A stretch of DNA of 64,000 bases from Leptotrichia wadei. GTDB taxonomy: Bacteria > Fusobacteriota > Fusobacteriia > Fusobacteriales > Leptotrichiaceae. Under the pieces are notes generated by a model. That model made no database searches, was not told the origin of the DNA, and saw nothing but the letters and a program-made list of their open reading frames with translations. The stretch lies in contig NZ_AP019841.1 of assembly GCF_007990445.1 (NCBI RefSeq), positions 620,001 to 684,000 on the forward strand, given 5' to 3'. Below are positions 6,312-38,590 of this stretch, one piece after another. The number at the start of each line of letters is the position of its first letter. Positions within the stretch are counted from its first letter, which is position 1. Made by a program: the position numbers and the translations under genes.

Positions 6312-6410
6312 AGCTATCAAACTTCTTAGAAAATTTTTAAATAATTTTAAAGATTTTAGAACCCTGCAACTTTAGTTGTGGGAGGTTCAGATATTTGGCC
6401 AGCGGGGGAT
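6312..6410 (+). ncRNA. Probable omega RNA 3' part plus guide (copy 1)
   Basis: The right end after tnpB folds into GAACCC ... GGTTC enclosing CAACTTTAGTTG. In IS605-type systems this is the scaffold of the TnpB guide RNA, and the guide is the chromosomal sequence just past the element, here starting ATATTTGGCCAGCG at 6391. The same bases also form the 3' splice site of the intron (terminal G 6390). Dual use is inferred from known IStrons and the visible structure. Confidence 0.65.
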
Positions 6411-8642
6411 ATCAGAGGAAATAAAAATCCATCACTTGAAGGAGGACTTCCTTATTTTGAAAAAACTTTGGAAAAATCTTGGGTAAATGTAGTTGCACTT
6501 GTGAATAAATCTGGAACTGCAGGATTGGAATGGAAGGATTTAGAGCCATTGTCAAATGCAGGGGTAGCTAGTAAATGGACTATAACTGCGGTAAGTGAAG
6601 ATGGAACATCAGCAAAAGCAGCGGAAAATGTTGCAAAAGCGGTAGATCAGGTACGTGAAAAATTTCCTGGAATGAAAATGGATATGATTAGAGACATAAT
6701 TCTTTCAACAGCTACTGATATCGGAGCAGCAGGAGTGGATGATGTATTTGGATATGGACTTTTAAATGCTACTACTGCTTTAAATGGACCAAGAAACTTG
6801 AATTACAGGTTAAGCAAGTTTCATGTTCCAGATACAAAAACTTGGGTTTTTAGAAATAATATTTATGGCTCGTATACAGATTTAGAAAAAAACGGAAAAG
6901 GGACATTAGTTTTAGAAGGAAAAAATTCTTTTTATAAAATAAAAGTAGATGGTGGAACACTAGTTTTGAAAGGAGACAATACTTCTGAATATGAAACAAT
7001 AATAAAAGATGGAATACTCGATGTTAAGAAAAAATTTACTCCCAAAAATATTGAAATAGAAACAAATGGAACATTGATTACAAATCCTGAAACTGTGATA
7101 GGAGAAATTTCTAAAAATTATCATACGGAGGAGATAACTGTTAATAAGGCAGTTGATGTTGTAAATAAAGGAACATTAAAGAATATTGGAACAGGAGCGA
7201 TTATAACTGGAAATTATACAGCGAAATATGGTTCAGTGACAGAAGCAGAAATTGGATCAAAATTAATAGTAAAAGGAACAATAAAAATTGATGGAAGAGA
7301 AAGAAATCAAACTTTGGGAAGCACAGTAAAACTTTTGAGTAATGGATACGTTACTGCAATGCCAACAACATCGGCAGTTATTGAAGCTGAAAAAGGAATA
7401 GAAGGACAATTTGCAAAAGTGGAAACTGATGGATTGATTAATGGAAAAGTGGAAAATAAAGGAAATTCAATTGAAGCTACAATTAGTAGAAAAAATGTGG
7501 AAGATTATGTAAATAGTTTGAAAAATAGCGATGAAATGCAGAAGAATACTGCTAAAAATGTAGAGGTTTCCTTTAAAGAATTAGATAAAAAAATAGCTGA
7601 AGGAAATGCAAATGTTTCTAATTTTGCTTTAGGTGCGGCAAAACTTCAAAAAAATTCCCTATCTTTGAGTTCAAGTATATTAGATAGTTTATCAGGACAA
7701 ATTTATGCTTCAGCTCAAGCTTTAACATTTCAACAATCGCAAACAATAAATAAGGATTTATCAAATAGACTTGTAATGCTCGGAACGCTTGATAATGCTA
7801 GTGATAAATTTGGATTATGGATTTCTTCCATTGGAGCTAATGGGAAATTAAAACAAAATGGGTATGCTGAAGGAAAAACTAAAGTTTATGGAGGACAGGT
7901 TGGAATTGATAAGCAATTTGGAGAAAATTTGATTTTAGGAACGGCTTTAGCTTATTCAAAAGGGAATGTGAAATTTGATAGACATGGTGGAAAATCAGAT
8001 GCGGATAATTTTGGAATTTCAGTGTATGGAAGAGTTGGAAATAAAGATAATCTGATGTATTTGCAAGGAAGAGTTGGACTTGGATTTGTAAATAGTGAAG
8101 TTAAAAGGGATATTATTTTATCTGAAAATGATATTTCACGAGGAAAAATTGAGCATAATGATAAAGTAATTTCAGGATATTTAGAAACAGGGTATGATGT
8201 GAAAAAAGGTGATTTTGTATTGACACCATTTGCTGGAATCTCGCACGATACAGTTCAAAGAGGAGCATTTCATGAGGAAAATAGCCAATTTGGATTAAAG
8301 GCGGATAAAAAGACTTACAAACAAACAAGTGGACTTGCTGGAGTTAGAGTTAGTCAGAAATTTAATTTTGAAAATGGTTCAAAAACTACATTACAAGGAT
8401 ATATAACACATCAAAGGGCATTTAATAATGAAGATTTGAATTTTAAAGCATCATATTCAGGACTACCAGATGCAAAATTTAAAGTAAAGGGAATAGGACT
8501 TTCAAAGAACCAAACATGGGTAGGAGCTGGAGTTTTAAATGAAGTTAGTTCAAAATTTGCCTGGTATTTGAATTATGATGGAAAAATTGATAAAAAGGCT
8601 AAAAATAATGTGTTTACAGCTGGTATGAGAGTTAATTTTTGA
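6391..8642 (+). CDS. Subtilase-like autotransporter, 3' exon with beta-barrel
   Basis: Continuation of the gene at 4002. The first residues YIWPAGDIRGNKNPSLEGG and SWVNVVAL match the late part of fusobacterial S8 domains. The catalytic-Ser region reads DGTSAKAAENVAKAV: GTS is kept but the usual FAAPxVxG context is lost. Then comes STATDIGAAGVDDVFGYGLLNATTALNGP, a passenger stem with glycine-rich repeats, and a C-terminal autotransporter beta-barrel of about 280 residues ending AGMRVNF with a terminal Phe. With the missing Asp/His motifs this suggests a surface protein derived from a protease. Translation of this part alone could begin only at a poor GTG (6378) inside the element, so function probably depends on intron splicing. 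Confidence 0.85.
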
Positions 8643-9483: not shown

Positions 9484-10527
9484 TTAATGTTTATGTCCGC
9501 AACAGCAAGAATGAGAATGCATATCAATTACCATACGTCCTTGAATTGTTCCTTCTTCCATTTCCTTAAAGATTTCAGGAGCTTCTTCAATAGTTCTAGT
9601 TTGAACTACTGGCACAACCAATCCTTCAGCTCCAAATTGGAATGCTTCTCTCAAGTCTTCTCTTGTTCCAACAAGCGATCCAATTACTTCAATACCGTCC
9701 AATACAGTTTTTACGATTGGCAAGTCCATAGTTTCTGATGGTAATCCAACAGCTACAACTTTTCCTGCAGCTCTTACTGAATCAACAGCTTGGTTAAATG
9801 CAACTTTTGATACAGCAGTAACTACAGCAATATGAGCTCCAATTCCGCTTAATTCTTTAATTTTTGCAACTGGATCTTCTTTTTTACCATTTATAACATA
9901 ATCTGCTCCAACTTCTTTAGCAAGTGCCAATTTATCATCATTAATATCAACAGCAATTACGTGAGTGTTAAACACTTTTTTAGCATATTGAACTGCCAAG
10001 TTTCCTAATCCTCCTACACCGTAAATTACTACCCATTGTCCTGGTTGAGGTTTTCCAACTTTTATAGCTTTATAAGTTGTAACTCCTGCACAAGTGATGC
10101 TGCTGGCTTGAACCGGATCCAGTCCTTCAGGCACTTTTACCGCATAATCAGCCGTAACGATACATTGTTCAGCCATTCCACCATCTGCAGAATATCCAGC
10201 ATTTATTACATCTCTACATAATGTTTCCTGTCCATTAATACAGTATTCACATCTTCCACATCCTTCAAAGAACCAGGCAATACTAACTCTATCTCCAGGT
10301 TTTAATGATGTCACACCTTCAGCAACTTCTCTTACAATCCCAATTCCTTCATGCCCTAAAACTCTTCCCGGAACTTTCCCAAAGTCACCATGAGCCACAT
10401 GCAGGTCAGTATGGCAAACACCGCAATATTCCACATCAACTAATGCTTCTCCGGCTTTTAGTCCTCTTAATTCTTTTTCTACAACTTCTACTCCAGTTCC
10501 TTCTTTATTAACTACTACTGCTTTCAT
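9484..10527 (-). CDS. adhP: Zinc-dependent alcohol dehydrogenase
   Basis: A 347-residue medium-chain dehydrogenase that interconverts primary alcohols and aldehydes with NAD(H), likely in fermentative ethanol metabolism. Catalytic zinc ligands: Cys in EYCGVCHTD (about 37), His in GHEGIG (about 59), Cys near 144 ([11 protein letters not shown]). Structural zinc: the four Cys of [18 protein letters not shown] site: [15 protein letters not shown]. It is very like AdhP/AdhT enzymes. Odd: the C-terminus ends in a His/Cys tail, [11 protein letters not shown], beyond the normal end, which looks metal-binding. Single-gene unit with a ribosome-binding site AAGGAAGGG-like upstream. Confidence 0.92.
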
Positions 10528-10744: not shown

Positions 10745-10773
10745 TTGACAATAGGTAGTTTGTTTGGTAGAAT
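10745..10773 (+). promoter_or_regulatory. Sigma-70-type promoter of the mgtE leader
   Basis: TTGACA (10745-10750), 17-nt spacer, TAGAAT (10768-10773). Predicted start is about 10780, giving an unusually long leader of about 285 nt before mgtE. Confidence 0.8.
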
Positions 10774-10779
10774 TTCTGT

Positions 10780-11066
10780 GAGCATAAGTTTTATTAGTTA
10801 TTTATCTTAATTTTTGTTTTGATTTTAGATATAGTAAAAATAACGGATATAAATATTTGGAATTTATGCTAATTTATTGTTTTGTGGAGGTGGATGTTTT
10901 GAACGAGGAAGTCCCGGAAGAGAGATTTAAAAATCTGAATAAATTAAAATTTACAAATTTATGCAAATACGGATAAAGGGAGTATCTTCGTTGCTGTTAT
11001 TCTCCTGATTTTTATTTGCATAAAAATTTAAAAAATTTGAGAATGCAAAAAAGAAAGGAGATAATG
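10780..11066 (+). promoter_or_regulatory. Structured mgtE leader, possible Mg-responsive control
   Basis: A long leader with several possible helices. AGCATAA (about 10781) can pair with TTATGCT (about 10864-10870). ATGCAAAT (about 10961-10968) can pair with ATTTGCAT (about 11015-11022), enclosing GGGAG/CTCC. The second hairpin overlaps the end of a small ORF (10899-10976) and precedes the mgtE ribosome-binding site, so ribosome position on the small ORF could change folding. I looked for the M-box (ykoK) consensus and did not find it. Confidence 0.5.
10899..10976 (+). CDS. Leader peptide upstream of mgtE, MgtL-like in logic
   Basis: A 25-codon ORF with TTG start at 10899 and GGAGGT 7 nt upstream, an excellent ribosome-binding site. 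The peptide starts with an acidic, Pro-containing block, NEEVPEER, and continues Lys/Asn-rich to ...CKYG. In enterobacteria, the leader MgtL ahead of mgtA begins with alternating acidic and Pro residues; these destabilise the ribosome at low magnesium and switch on the transporter. The same order (acidic/Pro start, basic tail, magnesium transporter next) is seen here. That it is translated and senses magnesium is inference. Confidence 0.55.
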   Translation: MNEEVPEERFKNLNKLKFTNLCKYG

Positions 11067-12413
11067 ATGGAAAACAACATTATTCAAAAACTTATAGATG
11101 AAAAAAAATATTTTGAAATTAGAAAATATTTAAATGATTTAAACATTGTGGAAGTTTCAGAACTGCTGAATCAGTTTGAGTCTTCTGAACTAATAATGAT
11201 TTTTCGGCTACTTTCCAAAAATAGGGCAGCCGATGTATTTTCATATCTGGACAGCGAACATCAGGAAATGATTATTAAGACAATGACAGATGTGGAAACT
11301 AAAAATATATTTGATGAGCTGTATTTTGACGATATTGTCGATATTATCGAAGAAATGCCGTCAAATGTAGTAAAAAAAATATTAAAGAATACCGATGCAA
11401 AAGACAGACACACAATAAATCTTTTGTTAAAATATCCAGATAATTCAGCTGGAAGTATCATGACAACTGAATATATGGACTTAAAAAAGGATATGACAGC
11501 TTCTTCTGCAATTTTTAAAATTAGGGATGTTATGGAAGATATGGCAAATGTCTATACCTGCTATGTGATTGATGAAGGTAGGAGGCTGGAAGGAGTAATT
11601 TCCCTAAAAGAGCTTATTACGAGCGAGGATGATGAGCCAATTCAAAATCTTATGAATAAAAATGTAATAAGTGTTCATGTAAATGATGATCAGGAAAAGG
11701 TTGCGGAAATAATAAAAAAATATAATCTTATCGTACTTCCTGTGACTGATGATGAAAATAGACTTTTAGGAATCATTACGATTGATGATGTAATGGATGT
11801 TGTGGAACAGGAAGCGACAGAGGATTTTCATAGAATGGCTGGGATTTCGCCTGTGGAGGAGTCTTATTTAAAAACAAGCGCCTTTACAATGGCAAGACAA
11901 AGAATTAGCTGGCTTATTGTGCTTATGATTTCTGCTACATTTACTGGAAGAATTATAAGCAAATATGAAGATGTGCTGCAGTCTGTAGTTATACTTTCTT
12001 CATTTATTCCAATGCTGATGGACACTGGAGGAAATGCAGGCGCACAGTCTTCGACAATTGTAGTCCGTGCTTTGGCATTGGGGGAAGTTGATACAAAAGA
12101 TACTTTTAAAATATTAAAAAAAGAATTTCTTATTTCATTTATAGTAGCTGTTGTTTTGGCGGCAATAAATTTTTTAAGAATTATAACTTTGACAAAAACA
12201 CCTTTAAATGTTGCAATGACAGTTTCAGTAACTTTAATTTTTGTAGTTATAATTTCTAAAATAATAGGTGCTTTTTTACCAGTTATCGCTAAAACTTTTA
12301 AAATGGATCCGGCAATAATGGCAGGGCCTTTAATAACAACGATTTTAGATGCGCTTACTCTTACTATTTACTTTAGATTTGCAACTATGTTTTTAAGTAA
12401 TGTTATAAAGTAA
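11067..12413 (+). CDS. mgtE: Magnesium transporter MgtE
   Basis: About 448 residues. Order: MgtE N-terminal superhelix (about 1-120, with AADVFSYLDSEHQEMII), a pair of CBS domains (about 120-250) that sense magnesium, the plug helix region, then five membrane segments with the pore region containing GGNAGAQSSTIVVRALALGEV and DPAIMAGPLITTILDALTL. These are signature MgtE sequences; the protein is a Mg2+-gated Mg2+ channel in the inner membrane. ATG 11067 (second of ATGATG) is chosen 6 nt after AAAGGAG. It follows a long leader with a small ORF and is followed by a paralogue. Confidence 0.95.
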   Translation: MENNIIQKLIDEKKYFEIRKYLNDLNIVEVSELLNQFESSELIMIFRLLSKNRAADVFSYLDSEHQEMIIKTMTDVETKNIFDELYFDDIVDIIEEMPSNVVKKILKNTDAKDRHTINLLLKYPDNSAGSIMTTEYMDLKKDMTASSAIFKIRDVMEDMANVYTCYVIDEGRRLEGVISLKELITSEDDEPIQNLMNKNVISVHVNDDQEKVAEIIKKYNLIVLPVTDDENRLLGIITIDDVMDVVEQEATEDFHRMAGISPVEESYLKTSAFTMARQRISWLIVLMISATFTGRIISKYEDVLQSVVILSSFIPMLMDTGGNAGAQSSTIVVRALALGEVDTKDTFKILKKEFLISFIVAVVLAAINFLRIITLTKTPLNVAMTVSVTLIFVVIISKIIGAFLPVIAKTFKMDPAIMAGPLITTILDALTLTIYFRFATMFLSNVIK

Positions 12414-12502: not shown

Positions 12503-13852
12503 ATGAAAAAAATAAAAAGAATAATTGAAGATCTTTTGAAAGAAAAAAAATATTTTGAAATAAAAAAAGAATTAGATAAATTAAATGCAGTTGAAATTTC
12601 TGATGTGATAAATTTATTTAAACTGCCAGAGCTTGTAATAATGATTTTTAGACTTTTAAAAAAAGATAAAGCGGCGGATGTGTTTTCATATTTGGATAGT
12701 GAACATCAGGAAATGATTATTCACGCTTCAACTGATGTTGAAACACGGGAAATATTTGATGAACTGTATTTTGACGATATTGTTGACATTATCGAGGAAA
12801 TGCCGTCGGATATTGTAAAAAAAATCTTGAAAAATACGGATAGAAAAGATAGACATTTGATAAACCAGCTTCTAAAATATCCAGATAATTCAGCTGGAAG
12901 CATTATGACGACTGAATATGTGGATTTTCAGAAAAATATGACAGTTCAAGAGGCGATAGGACAGCTGAAAAAAACTGGGAAAGACAAGGAAAATATTTAT
13001 ACTTGCTATGTTACGGACAAAAACGGAAAATTGGAAGGCGTGCTTTCACTAAAGGAATTGATTTCTAAAAAGGACAGTGCTGTAATTGAAGATATTATGA
13101 ATACAAATTTTGTAAGTGTAAATACACATGATGATCAGGAAAAAGTTGCAGATTTATTTAAAAAGTACGATTTTATCGTTATGCCAGTTGTTGACCATGA
13201 AAATAGGCTTTTGGGAATAATTACGGTGGATGATGTTTTGGATGTTGTGGATCAGGAAGTTACGGAAGATTTTCACAAAATGGCTGGAATTACTTCACCT
13301 ACCGATGATTCCTATTTAAAAACAAGCATCTTTACGATGGCAAAGCAAAGAATTGGGTGGCTTGCAGTTCTTATGATTTCCGACACAATTTCTGGAAATA
13401 TAATACAAGGTTATGAAAAAGTTCTGGCAAAGTCAATAATTTTAACGGCATTTATTCCAATGCTTATGTCAAGCGGAGGAAATGTTGGTTCACAATCTTC
13501 AACGGTTGTAATCCGTTCACTTGCACTTGGGGAAATTTCTCCAAAAGATGCCTTTAAAGTAATAAAAAAAGAATTTTCAATTGGAATAATGGTTTCAATA
13601 GTTTTGGCGCTGTTAAATTTTATAAGACTTATAACGCTTGAAAAAACTAATTTTGTAATTGCTTTTGTCGTTTCATTGACGCTTGTATTTACAGTAATTG
13701 TATCAAAACTGGTTGGAGCACTGCTTCCGCTTGGAGCAAAAATTGTGAAGGCCGATCCAGCAGTTATGGCAACCCCTTTGATAACAACAATTTCAGATGC
13801 TGTGACACTTGTAATTTATTTTAATTTTGCAGCGATGTTCTTAAAACTTTAA
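12503..13852 (+). CDS. mgtE: Magnesium transporter MgtE, second paralogue
   Basis: A 449-residue protein colinear with the preceding MgtE: N-terminal domain, CBS pair, and membrane domain with GGNVGSQSSTVVIRSLALGEI and DPAVMATPLITTISDAVTL. The two differ throughout, so this is an old tandem duplication and not a recent one. It starts 89 nt after its neighbour, with GAGGTGA 6 nt before the ATG, and has no comparable structured leader. It probably shares the upstream transcript. The GGNAGAQSS of the first copy reads GGNVGSQSS here, so the pore-lining region is slightly altered. Confidence 0.93.
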   Translation: MKKIKRIIEDLLKEKKYFEIKKELDKLNAVEISDVINLFKLPELVIMIFRLLKKDKAADVFSYLDSEHQEMIIHASTDVETREIFDELYFDDIVDIIEEMPSDIVKKILKNTDRKDRHLINQLLKYPDNSAGSIMTTEYVDFQKNMTVQEAIGQLKKTGKDKENIYTCYVTDKNGKLEGVLSLKELISKKDSAVIEDIMNTNFVSVNTHDDQEKVADLFKKYDFIVMPVVDHENRLLGIITVDDVLDVVDQEVTEDFHKMAGITSPTDDSYLKTSIFTMAKQRIGWLAVLMISDTISGNIIQGYEKVLAKSIILTAFIPMLMSSGGNVGSQSSTVVIRSLALGEISPKDAFKVIKKEFSIGIMVSIVLALLNFIRLITLEKTNFVIAFVVSLTLVFTVIVSKLVGALLPLGAKIVKADPAVMATPLITTISDAVTLVIYFNFAAMFLKL

Positions 13853-38317: not shown

Positions 38318-38590
38318 AAGTCATACTAGCCGGGGAGTTAGCGGTGCCCTGTATCTACAACCCGCTTTAGTAGAGGTGATGTCAAATTTGAGGGAAGTTT
38401 TAGTGTCAACGTCTTATTTCAAGAGTGTTGAGAAAATAGTCCCATATTGTAGAGAGTTAGCGAAACGTGTCAGGTCGGGAACGAAGCAGCACTAAGTTAA
38501 TTTCTTTAGGTTTATGGGGTAGCTGTTTTTGAGCTTTTGACTTAAGAAACGGATGGTAGAACGTTTTCGAGAGTTTGACGTATGACTTTT
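38318..38590 (+). ncRNA. ffs: Signal recognition particle RNA, large bacterial type
   Basis: About 270 nt. The 5' end AAGTCATAC pairs perfectly with GTATGACTT at 38580-38588, followed by a T-run that ends transcription. The Alu domain is seen at the 5' side (GGGGAGTTAGCGGTGCCCTGTA ... CAACCCGC, split over its first 50 nt). Helix 8, which binds Ffh, is TGTCAGGTCGGGAACGAAGC followed by AGCAC (38467-38492), with a GGAA tetraloop and the conserved asymmetric AGCAG side. The pair closing the tetraloop is G-C where E. coli has C-G, a compensatory change. With Ffh it targets membrane proteins to the translocon. Confidence 0.92.

Follow-up and report, generated by a model that had tools for sequence, protein, structure and literature searches.

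A conserved acidic/proline leader ORF upstream of mgtE in Leptotrichia wadei, a candidate translation attenuator set by ribosome position

Control of Mg2+ transporter genes by short leader ORFs has been described for enterobacteria. For mgtQ, the residues Asp2 and Glu5 act together with two alternative sets of RNA helices, 1:2 plus 3:4 versus 2:3, to free the ribosome binding site of mgtB (PMC8092293). In MgtL an EPDP motif leads to ribosome drop-off at low Mg2+, and EttA relieves pausing on mgtL (PMC11282234). In the accessible parts of these two papers, Mg2+ sensing by ribosome stability is presented for enterobacteria only. Here we analyzed the leader of an mgtE gene in Leptotrichia wadei. 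Like Salmonella mgtQ, as far as it is outlined in PMC8092293, this leader carries a short ORF with a strong Shine-Dalgarno sequence (SD), early acidic residues (codons 2 and 5 in mgtQ) and one proline.

The locus lies within a stretch of 64,000 nucleotides (the window), and all features named below are on its plus strand unless stated otherwise. The gene mgtE1 (11064–12413) encodes a magnesium transporter with MgtE_N-CBS-MgtE architecture (TIGR00400, PF01769/PF03448/PF00571); in a profile search the product was identified as MgtE with 484.9 bits for TIGR00400, the cut-off being 232.75. Translation starts at the ATG at 11064 or 11067, preceded by the SD AAGGAG at 11055–11060. A second MgtE gene, mgtE2 (12503–13852, TIGR00400 467.8 bits), follows directly 3' of mgtE1, and no leader ORF of its own was seen in the gap of about 90 nt between the two. 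Upstream we found a sigma-70-type promoter candidate, TTGACA-17-TAGAAT with a TG before the -10 element (10745–10773), which was identified by its match to 11 of 12 consensus positions. From this promoter-like site the leader is probably transcribed, and about 285 nt separate it from the mgtE start. A possible GCATAAG/TTTATGC hairpin lies near the transcript start within the 5' part of the leader (10775–10885); this part is kept in most members of the genus and is shorter in L004–L006. The divergent neighbor on the minus strand (9484–10527) is the alcohol dehydrogenase AdhP (NF006940, 599.2 bits). Elsewhere in the window we noticed a long ORF of 754 aa (6378–8642), whose likeness to an autotransporter end was judged by eye, and a large bacterial SRP RNA (38321–38585, RF01854, 143.6 bits). 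The genome also holds a third, divergent MgtE (G000:C1:821894–822262); corresponding genes exist in three relatives (L140, L141, L143), and the scan gave no acidic/Pro leader before them.

The leader ORF (10899–10976) starts with TTG at 10899–10901, comprises 25 codons encoding (f)M-NEEVPEERFKNLNKLKFTNLCKYG and ends with TAA at 10974–10976, about 87 nt before mgtE. Its SD GGAGGT (10886–10891) is spaced by 7 nt from the TTG. The peptide begins with fMet-NEEVPEER, codons 2–8 being NEEVPEE. A sequence-only reading of this DNA had described exactly such a TTG-started ORF with its GGAGGT site in a leader of about 285 nt, and the window sequence confirms it. Two other starts were considered and rejected: an ATG inside the leader SD region (ATG-TTT-TGA) is broken in L003, and an in-frame GTG upstream of the TTG is GTA in the same copy.

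Each of the 13 genus genomes has the ORF in front of mgtE, and so do 2 of the 20 genomes from the rest of the family, which represent two further genera. A DNA search of 60 relatives recovered the leader in all 13 genus genomes and in G022, and G026 also carries it. When 98 genomes of the phylum were searched with a pattern, matches with 0–1 mismatch were confined to those 15 leader genomes and G079, in which match and mgtE lie on separate contigs. A search for a plasmid-borne relative gave no match. Among the 15 copies the length varies (20, 21, 25, 37 or 41 codons), while start and frame are kept, so that the conservation which the earlier reading had asked for is found within the genus and beyond it. 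The peptides fall into the types LNEEVPEER..., LNEEVPSKK... and LNEETGRSK.... The TTG start and Glu3-Glu4 occur in 15/15 copies and Pro at codon 6 in 14/15; the distant L021 reads NEETG without early Pro, and its ORF ends about 21 nt before mgtE. In the other 14 leaders the stop just before the hairpin is kept; L021 reads through. At the nucleotide level the SD, TTG-AA, the GA-GA of codons 3–4, TCTTCG and TGTTATTCT are invariant in 15/15 aligned leaders. We determined a pN/pS of 0.28 in six 25-codon copies and of 0.73 in five 21-codon copies, where one control frame gave a similar value (0.76). The evidence for coding is good in the 25-codon group and weak in the 21-codon group. The leader ORF is probably translated. 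The conservation of Glu3-Glu4 could be explained by base pairing of the underlying RNA alone.

The leader RNA contains four segments able to pair in two ways. Region 1, AACGAGGA (10902–10909), covers codons Asn2-Glu3-Glu4 and pairs with region 2b, TCTTCGTT (10985–10992), which includes the invariant TCTTCG; this helix of 8 bp is part of the minimum free energy (MFE) structure. Region 2a, GGGAGTA (10978–10984), lies just after the stop codon. Region 3 is the anti-SD strand CTGTTATTCTCCT (10994–11006), including the invariant TGTTATTCT, and region 4 extends from the mgtE SD through the start codon to 11070. Region 3 can pair either with 11056–11070 (3:4) or, through TATTCTC at 10998–11004, with region 2a (2:3, an anti-anti-SD). 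The combination of 1:2 and 3:4 thus stands against 2:3. An outer helix is formed by TATGCAAATA (10960–10969) and TATTTGCATA (11013–11022) with 96.1% of cells paired; the arms of the hairpins flank and include the stop codon, which agrees with the earlier remark on long hairpins around the ORF, one of them over its stop.

Support for each helix was counted as paired cells on the alignment of 15 sequences and compared with slid positions and 500 shuffles. In the 1:2 helix 97.4% of cells are paired (38–70% when slid); two-sided changes are absent, and the changes AAC to AAT and GAG to GAA are silent and keep the pairing. The 3:4 helix shows 92.9% paired cells (45–75% when slid). Two-sided changes affect six of its cells, among them U-A/C-G at one pair, and none of 500 shuffles has as many; counted by pairs, two show two-sided changes, a number reached by 24/500 shuffles. 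For 2:3 together with the outer helix 88.7% of cells are paired (42–54% when slid), with little covariation, matched by 33/500 shuffles. The fold energy of the leader is unremarkable by itself (z = -1.69, 14/200 shuffles fold as well), so that the evidence above chance comes from conservation and switching.

We calculated how the position of a ribosome affects access to the mgtE SD by masking a footprint of 30 nt and deriving the opening free energy of SD and start codon from the partition function. As a control the segment from codon 10 to the SD was shuffled 40 times per leader; for L021, "stop" in these calculations denotes an out-of-frame TGA aligned with the stops of the other leaders. 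Over 15 leaders the mean opening energy was 8.2 kcal/mol for the free RNA; a ribosome at codon 6 lowered it to 5.7, and one at the stop raised it to 9.8. The difference between stop and early position was 4.06 as compared to -0.27 for shuffled RNA (maximum of 40 means 0.38), and 13/15 leaders exceeded all of their own shuffles; L005 and L003 failed to do so (27/40 and 5/40). For the window leader, opening of the SD costs least while the P site is on codons 1–9, and the SD is closed from codon 12 onwards. Its acidic and Pro residues, codons 3–8, fall within the SD-opening stretch of about codons 1–10. The opening energy of this leader is 5.9 kcal/mol with an early ribosome versus 10.3, the probability of an unpaired SD is about 0.2, and the MFE structure keeps the SD paired even with the early ribosome. 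Since the equilibrium structure stays closed, co-transcriptional folding or other help would be needed, the switch may be partly kinetic, or the model is incomplete.

The computations show that ORF and helices are conserved, that the pairings exclude one another and that access to the SD depends on ribosome position. We propose, with a probability of roughly 0.6, that the leader is a translation attenuator set by the position of the ribosome on the short ORF, in which early destabilization of the ribosome senses low Mg2+. Without a ribosome, or with one at the ORF end, region 3 would pair with the mgtE SD and start and mgtE would be off. A ribosome on about codons 1–10 would mask region 1, region 2 could then capture the anti-SD strand, and the mgtE SD would become more accessible. 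The early Asn-Glu-Glu-Val-Pro-Glu-Glu is the type of acidic/Pro nascent chain that would cause pausing or drop-off, more strongly at low Mg2+. When Mg2+ is low, early halting or abortion of translation would allow mgtE to be made; when it is high, ribosomes would complete the ORF and mgtE would be shut. Early destabilization, a Mg2+ signal and the sign of the regulation are inferred; since MgtE is an importer of Mg2+, low Mg2+ is taken as its natural trigger. The original proposal of an MgtL-like device holds up in part: the acidic/Pro ORF is conserved and an early-halted ribosome favors mgtE in silico, while the layout is closer to mgtQ than to the Rho-dependent mgtL.

No described riboswitch was found that could account for the leader. 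None of the Rfam 15 families reached its gathering score in the window leader, the best permissive matches being chance matches of microRNA type, and the M-box covariance model (RF00380) gave no hit in the window, in the L. wadei genome (0/1) or in the genus (0/13 genomes). A known riboswitch, which had been named beforehand as the finding that would overturn the proposal, is thus missing from these searches. The accompanying notion of a phylum without evident M-box applies to the genus and has to be given up for the phylum, where 18/98 genomes have one. A simple scan of the leader detected no intrinsic terminator. In the L. wadei genome an EttA equivalog was not detected (best match 426.9 bits, cut-off 806.75).

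We also inspected other Fusobacteriota. From a table of matches in the phylum 80 further mgtE upstream stretches were picked by hand, which are not all of its matches. A leader beginning with MDSYPKR, MDTYPKR, MDTYPQC, MDSYPQR, MEAGPNY or MGPDPKQ is carried by 14/80, and those of the 14 that were inspected by eye show hairpins at the leader stop whose 3' arms are complementary to the mgtE SD. The difference in opening energy between stop and early position was 4.54 for these leaders versus -1.02 when shuffled, with 13/14 exceeding all shuffles. The exception is L100 (MGPDPK), where the SD is closed only mid-ORF and open with a ribosome at the stop. Five of the 14 gave a pN/pS of 0.25. In the folding calculation the early-open switch was absent from five other fusobacterial leaders (L129, L132, L133, L098 and L102). 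Three of these (L129, L132, L133) are MDDCIRR leaders, reading MDDCIRRLDVMK(Q/K)M or a close variant, from three genomes of one fusobacterial genus (g27).

Scanning named genomes with an MgtE alignment yielded a first sample of 80 loci, mostly from Clostridia. In 40/80 a short ORF with an SD lies no more than 260 nt from mgtE, a count that takes in the Leptotrichia record L144 and the Fusobacteriaceae record L181. Common starts of the clostridial leaders are MDSGPLP, MDSGPVP, MDSSPLP, MDSYPEP, MDSSPEP, MDTVPG and MDAGST, and the ORF commonly ends 11–18 nt before mgtE. In 24 picked clostridial leaders 11 different codons are used at codon 3, mostly for Ser/Thr, and Pro5 is encoded by CCT, CCC, CCG or CCA; so many synonymous codons at these two positions favor selection on the peptide. 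Start codons of mgtE were assigned by a script, in some cases doubtfully; in L179, for example, the start was probably called too late, an in-frame ATG upstream adjoins a GCGTTCC...GGAACGC hairpin, and the attenuator fit may be better there. Over 172 loci (L144, L172 and L181 were left out, being taken as genes duplicated under other loci) an acidic residue in codons 2–4 together with Pro in codons 4–8 was present in 50/99 mgtE-proximal SD-preceded ORFs and in 14/457 elsewhere. Collapsing identical N-termini changed this to 33/81 versus 13/441, relatedness being otherwise uncorrected.

A second sample of 69 usable mgtE loci came from the class of Tissierella, with L266 excluded. The acidic/Pro rule applied to 15/69 loci as compared to 6/755 background windows, and an SD-preceded ORF with Asp2 occurred in 26/69 versus 3/755. 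The two samples overlap: L233 is from the same genome as L147, and L227, L237, L258 and L279 repeat L168, L157, L153 and L160, as judged from the peptide or the length of the contig. The early-open effect in Clostridia was 2.80 versus -0.01 shuffled in the first sample (n=16, 9/16 exceeding all own shuffles) and 1.79 versus -0.13 in the second (n=26, 11/26). The set of 16 was drawn from the 24 picked leaders, omitting L180, L191, L195, L197, L199, L200, L203 and L206 for a different N-terminus or longer spacing. L195, L199, L203 and L206, together with L241, L257 and L278, belong to another clostridial type of leader, MDAGS/MDAGGS/MDAGD..., which lies farther from mgtE; of these L257 and L278 gave the opposite folding response.

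Rfam families and the M-box were searched in 40/80 loci of the first sample, 20 bearing a leader and 20 without an ORF call. An M-box was located upstream of the ORF in 3/20 and was found in 4/20 of the loci without ORF call, and M-boxes were the only cis-regulatory Rfam matches upstream of mgtE near leaders in the 40 loci scanned. In L145 (1145–1307), L156 (1133–1292) and L192 (1114–1275) the M-box lies directly upstream of the acidic/Pro ORF and mgtE, an arrangement of two putative Mg2+ sensors in tandem.

These surveys do not establish the independent evolution that the sequence-only reading had envisaged: acidic/Pro leaders with this layout are found before mgtE in both Fusobacteriota and Clostridia, and the window leader may therefore have arisen by divergence within an old class. 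We see about even chances that ribosome-based Mg2+ sensing by such leaders is a widespread control of mgtE in both groups, acting by translation attenuation at the SD and sometimes placed behind an M-box.

An attenuator built as proposed might respond to something other than Mg2+, such as charged tRNA-Pro, the activity of EF-P or the overall capacity for translation. Any early pause is enough for the RNA switch to work, charged tRNA-Pro is the signal for Salmonella mgtP according to the accessible portion of PMC8092293, and Pro is found at codon 6 in nearly all copies (14/15). However, most Leptotrichia-type copies have one Pro codon among the first nine and L021 has none early, the acidic residues are more constant (15/15 for Glu3-Glu4), and in every family examined the gene downstream encodes a Mg2+ transporter. 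We consider such a signal unlikely. The conservation of AACGAGGA and TCTTCG at the nucleotide level, with 97.4% pairing of 1:2, would also fit an element made of RNA only or an uncharacterized riboswitch, with codons 2–4 kept only for their pairing with TCTTCGTT and an ORF that is there by chance. SD, TTG start and frame are nevertheless kept, pN/pS is 0.28 and 0.25 in two groups, and clostridial leaders retain Asp2-Ser/Thr3-x-Pro5 across many synonymous codons. Considering as well that SD access varies with ribosome position and that Rfam gives no match, we regard an incidental ORF as improbable.

Finally, the leader ORF might do no more than raise mgtE expression through reinitiation or translational coupling, with hairpins that take no part in switching. 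A distance of 11–18 nt between ORF end and mgtE in many Clostridia, and of about 21 nt in L021, would suit this, but the distance is about 87 nt in the window, and anti-SD pairing as well as position dependence lie above shuffles in most leaders. Such a role for the ORF appears very improbable, and we favor translation attenuation in response to low Mg2+.

Searching the open-access literature, with subscription papers and preprints outside the scope, we found, among the matches listed, no paper describing leader peptides of the acidic/Pro type for mgtE genes of Fusobacteriota or Clostridia, and no Rfam 15 family matched the window leader. On this basis we rate the mgtE leader as a new version of the known mgtQ/mgtL principle, with a distribution wider than first suggested. 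If the proposal is true, sensing by acidic/Pro leaders would rival the M-box in reach, would be much older and broader than enterobacterial mgtL and mgtQ, and would amount to a sensor for the MgtE channel that is general among bacteria. The leaders may have escaped notice, since their ORFs are short and fast-diverging and none of the RNA families searched matches them. The natural sequences NEEVPEE, DSYPKR, DSGPLP and DTVPG could be used to ask which nascent chains destabilize ribosomes, and the distribution of leaders would point to organisms whose Mg2+ uptake is controlled in the absence of an M-box.

Among the described systems mgtQ (PMC8092293, accessible text) resembles the window leader most in its layout. 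In both, 1:2 plus 3:4 helices alternate with 2:3 and the 3:4 helix hides the RBS of a Mg2+ transporter gene, which for the window is a prediction with weak support for 2:3; in both, slowed or aborted leader translation represents the ON state, again by prediction in the window. The strong SD and the acidic residues within the first five codons are found in the window leader as well. Unlike this leader, mgtQ has 8 codons, lies between mgtC and mgtB in the enterobacterial mgtC-mgtB operon and has MgtB as its target. Leaders of the window type have 20–41 codons, belong to another phylum, would form the 5' end of the mgtE transcript and would act on mgtE, and kinship in sequence is not evident. 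With mgtL of mgtA, as presented in the accessible part of PMC11282234, the window leader shares an early acidic/Pro motif, which in mgtL (EPDP) destabilizes the ribosome at low Mg2+ and thereby induces a Mg2+ transporter. The output of mgtL is a Rho-dependent terminator, whereas the predicted target in the window is the mgtE SD; in place of EPDP at codons 2–5 the window has NEEVPEE, and the closest sequence by eye is MGPDPK in L100.

The M-box (ykoK, RF00380) likewise controls mgtE, in addition to other Mg2+ transporter genes, but is based on an aptamer and was not found in the L. wadei genome or the genus. The M-box-associated uORF2 of mycobacteria is similar in being a conserved small ORF with an N-terminal Pro and a link to Mg2+ control; it differs in lying under an M-box aptamer upstream of pe20 and is described as specific to mycobacteria (PMC12810186, accessible text). 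The mgtE motif of Thioalkalivibrio is a proposed structured RNA that also contains the mgtE SD and start; it is a riboswitch candidate reported from Thioalkalivibrio only, and the accessible text of PMC11109978 describes no leader ORF. Compared to the MD[ST]xPxP leaders of Clostridia and the Fusobacteriaceae type, the window leader lacks the combination of Asp2 and Pro5 and carries Asn2, Glu3, Glu4 and Pro6 instead. It shares with them the SD-preceded ORF shortly before mgtE and the opening of the mgtE SD by an early ribosome, features seen in the window leader though not in every copy.
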